Positions 44,269 through 50,319 of a stretch of 50,319 nt of DNA are shown here, in pieces. How positions within the stretch are numbered: position 1 is the first letter of the stretch; every line of letters starts with the position of its first letter. Under the pieces are notes generated by a model that saw only the letters and a program-made list of their open reading frames with translations, ran no database searches and was not told the origin of the DNA. Source of the stretch: Desulfitibacter sp. BRH_c19. GTDB taxonomy: Bacteria; Bacillota; DSM-16504; Desulfitibacterales; Desulfitibacteraceae. Where the stretch lies: the NCBI GenBank assembly GCA_001515945.1, contig LOER01000006.1, forward strand, positions 1-50,319, read 5' to 3'. A program made the translations under genes and the position numbers.

Positions 44269-44298
44269 TTTCGCCTTCCTTTCAAAAGTATATTTCAC

Positions 44299-44400
44299 AT
44301 AACGCTCTTTGCATTCCCGACGTGTCCGTCCCGCTAGGGCTGGCGCAAGACTTGCCCACCCTATGGTACATTCCCAAATGCAAGTCTTGTGACAGAGGAT
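44299..44400. repeat. Left part of attC-like palindrome I, split by a group II intron
   Basis: Outer box CATAAC (44299-44304) and arm GCATTCCCG (44311-44319) match the right part GTTATG and CGGGAAAGC at 46360-46378 beyond the intron. Inside is a stem CAAGACTTGC/GCAAGTCTTG. Confidence 0.65.
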
Positions 44401-44448
44401 ATGTGGGCGGCTTACCTCAAAACTCACCCCACCGCCGCTTGGGTGAGT

Positions 44449-46359
44449 AGCTAATCTCTCACGAAATTTCGCCCTCTCAGAACCGGACATGCCCAATTAA
44501 GGCATCCGGCTCCCCATATGAGCCTCTTTACACATATGCTGAATTAAGGTTAACTAAAGATTTAGGATTTTCTAGTGGATAGAGCTTCAACATCTTATTG
44601 AATTTACTCCACTCTAAATTATTCCTTTGACTACGCCGATTAAGCCATTTTGCTAGCAGAATAATGATTTGCCTTTTATAGTTCAATAGATTTTGCCAGT
44701 TATCACTAACACCATAGTATTGATAGTGACCCCTTAGTTTAGAGTTTACTGTTTTCCATATTTCTTTTAGGGATTGATGTCTATTTTCCTTAATCCATTG
44801 AGCAAAATCTTTCACCTTTGCGTTATATTTCTTTCGTGCTGTTTTCCATTTCAATTTGAAGCGTCCTTTTCTACTTCTTCCGCAGTAGTGGGTAATTCCC
44901 AGAAAGTCAAAAGTCTCAGGTTTTCCATCGCCACGTCTTTTTGCATCTCTCTCAGCAAACCGACCAAATTCTATAATTCTTGTTTTCTCTTCAGCTACTT
45001 CTAGCCCGAATTTTGCCAGTCTGTCCTTTAATGATTGGTAGAAAAGTTGTGCATCTCTCTTATATTGGAAACAAACTACGAAGTCATCAGCATACCTTGT
45101 TAGGTATGCTTCACCAATACTCATTTTTCTAATAACTTTGTCAAACCATGGGTCAAGGGTGTAGTGAAGATATATATTTGCCAGTAACGGCGATAAGCTA
45201 CCCCCTTGCGGGACACCTTCTGTAGTGTTGATGAAAGTGTCTTCTTCCATTATTCCTGCTTTGAGAAAACGTTTAACTAACCTGAGTATTTTGGTGTCTT
45301 TAACTCGGTGTTCTAGCATTTTCATTAGCCATTCGTGGTCCACATGATCGAAAAAGCCACGAATGTCTGCTTCAACTATATAGCTTACTTTCTTTGTTCC
45401 TATGTTACGGCTTAAGTCTTTTAGAGCTTCATGACAGTTTCTTTTTGGTCTAAATCCAAAGGAGAAATCAAGGAAGTCTTGTTCGTATATGCTTTCTAGT
45501 ATGATAACTAGTGCTGTTTGAACCAGTTTATCTTCTAAAGCTGGGATTCCAAGCGGTCTCATTTTATTGCTTCCTGCTTTGGGAATATACTTCCTTCTTA
45601 CTGGGAGTGGTTTATATGTACCTCTCTTCAGCTTCTCCAGTAGGTTGATTAGATTCTCCTCAAGATGTAATTTGTAAATCTCTTTAGTTTCTCCATCAAT
45701 TCCAGGGGCAGCCGAGCTTGATACTCTTTTGAAAGCTTCTCTTAATGTTCCTTTACCCATAAGATGAGCTAGTGAACAGAATTTGCTACTTTTATCTGCC
45801 CTTGCACGTTGTGCTATGTCTGCAAGTTTTGTTCTCACTGTTATCCTGGTTCTGAGTCCAGGCAATGTGTCGTTTGCATACGGTCTCATATGTCACTCTC
45901 CTTCCCTCTTTCCGGCGTTACCCGTTTTCATCGGTACTATGAGAGTGTCCGACTTCCCATTGGCATTTGCCTCTCTTACCTCTTCAGCTTGTTTGGCATA
46001 CTTCTCTATGGTGAGAAGACCGTTGGGATCTCCCTGGGTTTCCACACATTCTTAGTGTTCTGCTAGGTATGGTCTTCGACCCCGGATAGGTCACCTTGTC
46101 CTCGCCTTATACGCACAAGGTGATATTGCTTTCCACGTTCCCGACCGTTTCTGCCTCTATCATTAGTTACAGAGTTTTCGGGGCTCAATCCCGTTCACCG
46201 CTGGGATACCACCCAGTCGATTCTACCTCGCTGACTTTCTGTCTACGCTTAAAACACTACGTTACCGCAATGCCTCCAAGACTCGATACGAGGCGGATGG
46301 CTAGTCCTTACCTCGGCAGGATCTCCCCCTGCTAGAATGTGCGACCTGCCAGGACGCAC
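44449..46359 (-). mobile_element. Group II intron
   Basis: The 5' end is placed at 46359, where the minus strand begins GTGCGTCC. Domain V is seen near the 3' end as GAGCCGGATGCC ... GGCATGTCCGGTTC (about 44485-44525), followed by a domain VI-like hairpin GTGAG/CTCAC. The exact 3' end (near 44449) is approximate. It contains one reverse-transcriptase gene in domain IV. The DNA on both sides is the split attC-like palindrome I. The RT lacks an endonuclease domain, so integration would use a nicking-independent route. Confidence 0.8.
44528..45889 (-). CDS. Group II intron reverse transcriptase/maturase
   Basis: A 453-residue RT. Motifs: KMRPLGIPALEDKLVQTAL, FSFGFRPKRNCHEAL, VEADIRGFFDHVDH, GVPQGGSLSPLLANI and the catalytic TRYADDFVV. 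The maturase (X) domain includes LRGHYQYYGVSDNW and KWLNRRSQRNN. There is no HNH endonuclease at the C-terminus. The class (C, D or E type) could not be assigned safely; C-terminal blocks recall class D/E rather than the attC-targeting class C. Confidence 0.93.
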   Translation of the reverse strand: MRPYANDTLPGLRTRITVRTKLADIAQRARADKSSKFCSLAHLMGKGTLREAFKRVSSSAAPGIDGETKEIYKLHLEENLINLLEKLKRGTYKPLPVRRKYIPKAGSNKMRPLGIPALEDKLVQTALVIILESIYEQDFLDFSFGFRPKRNCHEALKDLSRNIGTKKVSYIVEADIRGFFDHVDHEWLMKMLEHRVKDTKILRLVKRFLKAGIMEEDTFINTTEGVPQGGSLSPLLANIYLHYTLDPWFDKVIRKMSIGEAYLTRYADDFVVCFQYKRDAQLFYQSLKDRLAKFGLEVAEEKTRIIEFGRFAERDAKRRGDGKPETFDFLGITHYCGRSRKGRFKLKWKTARKKYNAKVKDFAQWIKENRHQSLKEIWKTVNSKLRGHYQYYGVSDNWQNLLNYKRQIIILLAKWLNRRSQRNNLEWSKFNKMLKLYPLENPKSLVNLNSAYV

Positions 46360-46378
46360 CGGGAAAGCTCGTGTTATG
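46360..46378. repeat. Right part of the intron-split attC-like palindrome I
   Basis: CGGGAAAGC, a four-base spacer and GTTATG. It pairs with CATAAC and GCATTCCCG at 44299-44319 across the intron. The intron boundary lies at the inner end of the arm. Confidence 0.65.
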
Positions 46379-46405
46379 TAAAAGTCGCGCGCCTCTAGTT
46401 TCAGA

Positions 46406-46447: not shown

Positions 46448-47008
46448 TCACCTTTTTTTTCGTTGTCCTAGATAATATCCTTTCTGTCGTGCAATCTCGC
46501 CAAGTATGGAATGCAGAACTTTAGATTTACCTTTAATATCTAAACCATATGATGATTCTTTTGCTCCTACTAATGCTTCTTTTATCTCTTCAATTTTCAT
46601 AACGGTTGCTGCTACACAATAATAGCTTTTTGAGCGACCTTCGTTAAAATTATCTAACATATCCTTTAGCAGTTCTTCTCTTATGTCCTGCAATCTTTTA
46701 TATTCTTCAAATCCATTTTTCTGGATATAAATAATATCCTCCTTAAGCTTTTGATAACATTTAAATGAGTCATATTTTGCTCCCGCTTCCCGATGTTTCC
46801 CCCATTTTTCACAATTAGAACTTTCCTTACATTCCCAACAAAATTCAACCTCTTTTTTCTTTATAGCGCACGTTATAAAAGGACATCCAAGAGTCATTCG
46901 CGATTGACTCTTGCACCCGTCACATCTACTCTTAGCATCCGTATGATACATTGGACACAATTGACATGAAAGACCACATATCCCCATATCTGGGTATTTA
47001 ATGTCCAT
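46448..47008 (-). CDS. DUF3795 cysteine-rich protein
   Basis: A 186-residue protein whose first ~75 residues are a cysteine set: MGICGLSCQLCPMY, SRCDGCKSQ, GCPFITCAIKKK and FCWECKESSNCEKW. This is the DUF3795 metal-binding (probably zinc) domain of anaerobes. The C-terminal 110 residues are helical. ATG with AAGGGG upstream. Function unknown. It is a single-gene unit followed by the AGGAC hairpin and palindrome I. Confidence 0.85.
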   Translation of the reverse strand: MDIKYPDMGICGLSCQLCPMYHTDAKSRCDGCKSQSRMTLGCPFITCAIKKKEVEFCWECKESSNCEKWGKHREAGAKYDSFKCYQKLKEDIIYIQKNGFEEYKRLQDIREELLKDMLDNFNEGRSKSYYCVAATVMKIEEIKEALVGAKESSYGLDIKGKSKVLHSILGEIARQKGYYLGQRKKR

Positions 47009-47722: not shown

Positions 47723-47762
47723 AATTTCCCGCTCCCTCCATCTATTTCTCCGAACACATCCT

Positions 47763-47919
47763 GTCGTATAACGTGGCGCGGGTTTGCGAAGTTGCTTTGG
47801 AGGACAAGGGGTTTTCTTGTCCGTAAAAGCAATTTTGCAAACCTGCTGATAGGCGATGTTGGGAGCGCTTCAGCGCGAACCCGCCTATCAGCGGGTGTAA
47901 CCGGCGCCACGATAGGACG
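47763..47919. repeat. attC-like palindrome F1 (129-bp type)
   Basis: Starts CGTATAACG. Outer arms CGTGGCGCGGGTT (47769 on) and AACCGGCGCCACG (47899-47911) pair at 12 of 13 positions. Inside are GGTTTGCGAA/TTTGCAAACC, GGACAAG/CTTGTCC and TGATAGGCG/CGCCTATCA. The right outer box has decayed to CGATAGG. Nearly identical to the element at 50191. Confidence 0.75.
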
Positions 47920-47955
47920 GAATTGTGTGCGCAGCGAGCAATTTCCGTCCTATCG
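47910..47955. repeat. Inverted repeat joining palindromes F1 and F2
   Basis: CGATAGGACGGAA and TTCCGTCCTATCG pair with a short stem-loop of GCGCAGCGAG between them. It replaces the expected right box of F1 and the left box of F2. Confidence 0.65.
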
Positions 47956-48025
47956 TTCCGCGAATTGCCGAAGTCTGATTACTACATTCATATTCTCTCA
48001 GATTTTGGCAATTCGCTGTTATCGG
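47951..48025. repeat. attC-like palindrome F2 (short type)
   Basis: Arms GCGAATTGCCGAA and TTTTGGCAATTCGC pair; the right box is GTTATCGG. The loop is nearly that of palindrome G. The left box reads TATCG, a decayed ATAACG. Confidence 0.75.
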
Positions 48026-48050
48026 ATGGATGAGGCCCCCCGAAGCCAGA

Positions 48051-48790: not shown

Positions 48791-48806
48791 ACCCCGCCTC
48801 ATCTTT

Positions 48807-48889
48807 CCGATAACGTTCCGTGAATTCCCGAAGTCTGGTTACTACACTCATATTCTCTCAGATTTTGGGAATTTACTGTTATACGACGG
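48807..48889. repeat. attC-like palindrome G (short type)
   Basis: Outer boxes CCGATAACG (48807-48815) and GTTATACGAC (48878-48887). Inner arms TGAATTCCCGAA and TTTTGGGAATTTA. It follows the lipoprotein gene stop by a few bases (minus strand). Confidence 0.8.
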
Positions 48890-48896
48890 ACCCCTT

Positions 48897-50165: not shown

Positions 50166-50190
50166 TAATCTTCCTCCTCACACAAAGGGT

Positions 50191-50319
50191 CTGTCGTATA
50201 ACGTGGCGCGGGTTTGCGAAGTTGCTTTGGAGGACAAGGGTTTTCTTGTCCGGAAAAGCAATTTTGCAAACCTGCTGATAGGCGATGTTGGGAGCGCTTT
50301 AGCGCGAACCCGCCTATCA
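50191..50319. repeat. attC-like element H (129-bp type), cut by the window edge
   Basis: Near-identical to 47763-47890: one G fewer in a G-run and two other base changes. Begins CTGTCGTATAACGTGGCGCG. It is cut before its right arm. It lies just upstream (minus strand) of the lipoprotein gene. Confidence 0.8.

Follow-up and report, generated by a model that had tools for sequence, protein, structure and literature searches.

The analyzed stretch of DNA (50,319 nt, hereafter the window, corresponding to contig C6 of a 3.85-Mb draft genome) harbors an endonuclease-less group II intron that, as judged by comparative sequence analysis, very probably represents a lineage, apparently outside class C, that homes to attC-like cassette sites. 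The full-length intron (1,918 nt; minus strand, 46359 to 44442) is located inside one such site. The two arms flanking it, which the preliminary description had proposed to be halves of a single attC-like site separated by the intron, are indeed such halves (on the forward strand, ACATAAC/GCATTCCCG at 44297-44319 and CGGGAAAGC/GTTATGT at 46360-46379). The interrupted site and the intron comprise the following features:

46360-46379, minus strand: first arm of the attC-like site (5' exon), with R'' ACATAAC and L'' GCTTTCCCG (from the sequence and the bottom-strand fold of the joined site)
44442-46359, minus strand: group II intron, GTGCGTCC...CTACTCACC (Rfam matches; boundaries from intronless site copies and relatives)
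46070-46326, minus strand: 5' part of the ribozyme, RF02005 (group-II-D1D4-6; Rfam, 140 bits)
44528-45889, minus strand: reverse transcriptase (RT)/maturase, 453 aa, YADD, no endonuclease domain found (TIGR04416, 377 bits)
44442-44514, minus strand: domains V-VI (D5/D6), RF00029 (Intron_gpII; Rfam, 45.7 bits)
44320-44441, minus strand: site loop (variable terminal structure), part of the 3' exon and not of the intron (contiguous in intronless copies)
44297-44319, minus strand: second arm of the attC-like site, with L' CGGGAATGC (44311-44319) and R' GTTATGT (44297-44303) (from the sequence and the fold)

The element displays the hallmarks of a group II intron, namely, ribozyme domains, a GUGYG 5' end, D5 and an RT/maturase ORF in domain IV. 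Both of its ends had previously been placed at the arms of the palindrome, which holds for the 5' end (GTGCG at 46359, adjoining the inner end of the L'' arm) but not for the 3' end (44442, junction CTACTCACC/CAAGC), where a 122-nt loop precedes the other arm. These boundaries were deduced from the site's own homologs. A search of the own genome with the left-flank DNA revealed eight further places, and a comparison of the joined flanks with the same genome yielded at least seven intronless copies running across the insertion point at 73-89% identity (including C16:68123-68273, C8:31785, C20:153, C8:70 and C8 near 28,200). The window junctions read TTTCCCG/GTGCG...CTACTCACC/CAAGCGGCGGTGGGG, and the intronless copies read ACGAGCTTTCCCG-CAAGG-GGCGGTGGGG, with TTTCCCG/CAAGG contiguous. 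Since these copies are contiguous over the stretch equivalent to 44320-44441, its 122 nt represent the site loop, and the intron ends at 44442; the original assignment of this stretch to the intron had to be abandoned. Some Bacillus introns carry a 3' extension, and such an extension was considered for the same 122 nt and ruled out by their occurrence in intronless copies. The CTACT motif lies nine bases from the 3' end in the window intron and in its Lachnospiraceae relatives alike.

Folding of the joined flanks, a check that the preliminary description had called for, yielded an attC-type hairpin in which an R helix and an L helix, the latter with one mismatch, are separated by a spacer and the terminal structure is branched. 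Features of attC sites found here include R'', L'', L' and R' boxes arranged as an imperfect inverted repeat and a bottom strand that folds into the more stable structure (-32.5 vs. -28.1 kcal/mol for the top strand). On the minus strand, a gene for a DUF3795 protein (46448-47008) is followed by the split site and then by a gene for a beta-lactamase-fold protein; because these neighboring genes lie on the minus strand, it corresponds to the gene (top) strand in attC terms, and the intron, as initially noted, runs in the direction of the cassette genes. As the insertion falls within the loop, none of the four boxes (R'', L'', L' and R') is cut.

Recognition of this site by the intron RNA would involve two guide-target pairings:

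46360-46365, minus strand: IBS1 TTCCCG, inner end of the L'' arm (complement of EBS1)
46368-46373, minus strand: IBS2 CACGAG, overlapping the R''-L'' spacer (pairing with EBS2)
46138-46143, minus strand: EBS1 CGGGAA (intron nt 217-222), a 6/6 complement of IBS1 that covaries in four relatives
46114-46119, minus strand: EBS2 CTTGTG (intron nt 241-246), a 6-bp pairing with IBS2 including one G-U

The four closest relatives found in the sampled genomes (two draws of 398 genomes taken across the phylum, together with the 74 genomes in the order to which G205 belongs) possess RTs 65-73% identical to that of the window and come from G205 (L061), G445 (L073), G598 (L096) and G552 (L097), hosts that represent four genera of two families, neither of which is the family of the window. 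All four introns are inserted at the same point of attC-like sites, in the order of AAC box, arm, intron, loop, matching arm and GTT box. The last six bases of the 5' exon are TTCCCG in the window and G445, TTCCCA in G205 and TTAGCG in G598 and G552, and the EBS1 sequences at the homologous place (CGGGAA, TGGGAA and CGCTAA, respectively) match IBS1 at 6/6 positions in all five introns. In each of them, EBS2 is located approximately 24 nt beyond EBS1 and forms a pairing of 4-6 bp to the R''-L'' spacer (bases -14 to -8).

The G205 intron, 72% identical to the window intron, interrupts a different type of attC-like site at the same insertion point. Over 20 intact sites running across its junction were identified, of which two belong to the window:

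48800-48895, minus strand: intact attC-like site of the type interrupted by the G205 intron (matched at 81% by the joined G205 flanks, including their junction)
47951-48030, minus strand: second intact site of the G205 type (match to the joined G205 flanks)

This site type is present in 8 of the 10 genomes tested, with many copies clustered in G443. Empty sites, which the preliminary description had suggested seeking in related strains, occur as intronless copies in the own genome and, for the G205 type, as intact sites in the window and in other genomes. Among the three or four genomes available at the level of genus, family, order and class, there was no close relative of the own genome. The G598 intron resides in an array of single-gene units in which five or more copies of its site are intact; in the stretches read for G445 and G552, no intact homolog across the junction was detected.

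These comparisons bear on two alternative explanations. According to the first of them, an ordinary homing intron has found its target by accident within one attC-like site. Indeed, with shuffled 3' flanks equally good arms were obtained in a large share of trials, i.e., the palindrome alone is not beyond chance, and arm complementarity was dropped as a sole proof; moreover, EBS-IBS pairing is expected at any real insertion. On the other hand, homology to intact sites together with the pattern repeated in five genomes is far beyond chance. All five members of the clade (at least 65% RT identity; support 97/98) are inserted at one and the same position of attC-like sites that differ in their loops, and their EBS1 covaries with the arm, as opposed to none of the 13 control introns (RTs 50-56% identical), which have other targets. 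Chance is therefore very unlikely, and of the two options that the preliminary description had left side by side, a new attC-targeting lineage is preferred over a fortuitous hit. The second alternative, a single ancestral insertion that was spread between genomes in a moving cassette rather than by repeated homing, draws on the sharing of cassettes with near-identical sites between families and on the similarity of the window and G445 5' flanks (34 bp at 88%). We regard it as improbable, given that the insertions have different loops (3' exons; window type, G205 type, G445 type and G598/G552 types), EBS1 and IBS1 are altered in concert, and separate intact copies exist for the site types of the window, G205 and G598. 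The cassette genes flanking the five insertions appear, in part, to be unrelated.

Several of the more distant relatives, from Lachnospiraceae (L013, L014, L015, L018, L020 and L023; RTs 50-52% identical), have their 5' ends 8-10 nt downstream of TATAAT-like boxes. A candidate EBS2 pairs with this box in several of them; these introns possibly home to promoters.

With respect to class assignment, no endonuclease domain is recognizable in the intron RT, for which Pfam gives RVT_1 only. The RT scores 191 bits against LtrA, above the 167 and 140 bits obtained against class C RTs, and shares 45% identity over 431 residues with the RT of a Sinorhizobium meliloti plasmid intron. In the RT tree, the five attC-inserted introns form one clade (support 97/98) apart from the class C and LtrA representatives, and none of 500 label shuffles produced a grouping as clustered as these five; the tree gives no confident join of this clade with the S. 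meliloti (class D) RT. Forcing the clade together with the class C pair costs 11.7 log units (p-AU 0.055), which marginally disfavors this grouping. The earlier impression of an RT unlike those of class C is thus borne out by its position outside the class C pair and softened by the marginal outcome of this test. On the tree alone, exclusion from class C is incomplete; it is reinforced by the pairing of EBS2 and by the strand and position of the insertion, and the lineage of the window intron is apparently outside class C. In the G205 intron, the active-site motif of the RT is FADD instead of YADD.

A class C-attC intron in an unusual orientation has to be weighed at this point, because insertion at attC is an established trait of class C introns (PMC4424553, PMC7923331), one IIC intron in Enterobacter cloacae with an unusual orientation is cited in PMC7923331, and the test against a class C grouping is marginal. 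We nevertheless consider this explanation extremely improbable in view of the RT being closer to LtrA and similar to the S. meliloti RT, the presence of EBS2, the EBS1 pairing over 6 bp, and the insertion on the top strand at a place other than TTGT/T. An RT without an endonuclease domain combined with a ribozyme using EBS2 pairing is a poor fit to class C-attC introns.

The genomic setting of the window intron is that of a cassette array with several types of attC-like sites. Long composite repeats (GTATAACGTGGCGCGGG...) at 47760-47965 and 50190-50319 resemble nested or fused attC-like sites, and the contig ends in one of them. A dense cluster of attC-like sites of a single type, observed in G443 from another family of the phylum (C1:3296000-3314000, L101, with copies up to 3325013), is likely a large cassette array. 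Among the tyrosine recombinases of the own genome, no IntI with the extra patch was found (best score 212.8 bits vs. a cut-off of 265), and stretch 178-236 of the integron-integrase profile remained unmatched; since these recombinases fall below the integron-integrase cut-off, we refer to the sites as attC-like. IntI-like tyrosine recombinases under the cut-offs of the integron-integrase model are encoded near attC-like sites (L049:2728-3795, L053:3725-4600 and L051:7495-8022, all on the minus strand); the one on C16, apparently truncated, has an intact copy of the intron target site approximately 100 bp away.

Only one full-length copy of the intron is present in the own genome, and several intact sites with the same IBS1 stand empty, which makes its present activity doubtful. 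Degraded pieces of the window intron lie on C8, and scrambled relics were observed at L002 1500-1840 and C8:8744-8880 (L058). The 5' relic at C8:8744-8880 retains IBS1 TTCCCG in its 5' flank with no recognizable attC-like site around it; as it lies outside a clear attC-like site, attC is not an absolute requirement.

In the proposed mechanism, the excised intron RNA with its RT would read the gene (top) strand through EBS1, paired with the final six bases of L'', and EBS2, paired with the R''-L'' spacer. Reverse splicing would then occur at the L''-loop junction, followed by copying by the RT in a presumed retrohoming reaction. Priming may be provided by the replication fork, as described for other endonuclease-less introns (PMC4424553). 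Because EBS1 needs to pair with the L'' arm, a hairpin on the gene strand should compete with the intron, as opposed to class C introns, for which the hairpin is needed. The insertion point in the loop, with the R and L boxes intact, suggests that the intron may travel with the cassette; that the two move together and that the split site still recombines is a matter of speculation. The fullest version of this scenario, that of a class C-independent lineage specialized on attC-like sites via guides matching the L'' arm and acting as a box-sparing cassette passenger that spreads by both retrohoming and cassette exchange, could equally well prove right or wrong.

Among known systems, class D introns (RmInt1 type) likewise encode an RT/maturase without an endonuclease; RmInt1 of Sinorhizobium meliloti homes to an insertion sequence and not to attC. 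The interrupted sites themselves share with integron attC sites the R''-L''-loop-L'-R' layout, AAC/GTT boxes, better folding of the bottom strand and single-gene cassettes, differing in that the recombinases found here are under the integron-integrase cut-off. If the hosts are Bacillota, as suggested by their nearest named relatives, these sites point to the occurrence of cassette arrays in a phylum with few integron detections (PMC9024848, Firmicutes).

Class C introns are found behind terminators or at attC sites, on the bottom strand and against the gene direction, and in a published review attC insertion is ascribed to this class, homing to ordinary sites being the habit of all other lineages (PMC4424553, PMC7923331 for the former; PMC4424553 for the latter). 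Group IIC-attC introns (S.ma.I2 and relatives) are also endonuclease-less and occupy attC sites of cassette arrays (PMC4424553, PMC7923331). However, they use the bottom strand at TTGT/T in R'', a hairpin in place of IBS2 and a short EBS1 pairing (3-4 bp), whereas the window intron uses the gene strand, the L''-loop junction after TTCCCG and 6-bp pairings of both EBS1 and EBS2. Non-class-C, integron-linked introns are represented by the group IIB introns UHB.I2 and H.ha.F1/F2 of hypersaline integrons or CALINs (PMC7923331). UHB.I2 runs in the cassette direction, as does the window intron, but belongs to CL1, has non-standard ends and lies just past an attC site, and the H.ha fragments are of class E and 5'-truncated, as compared to the full-length window intron within its site (PMC7923331). 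For these introns no lineage-wide attC targeting has been shown (PMC7923331), in contrast to the common habit of the clade described here; a lineage with shared guide-matched insertion inside the site is not reported among them. The literature searched contained no papers on this clade, although such papers may exist outside it. Overall, the five introns constitute a natural series of guide-target covariation and, if the proposed reading is true, a second lineage which, by way of another strand, another position and guide-based recognition, has come to a convergent use of integron sites.
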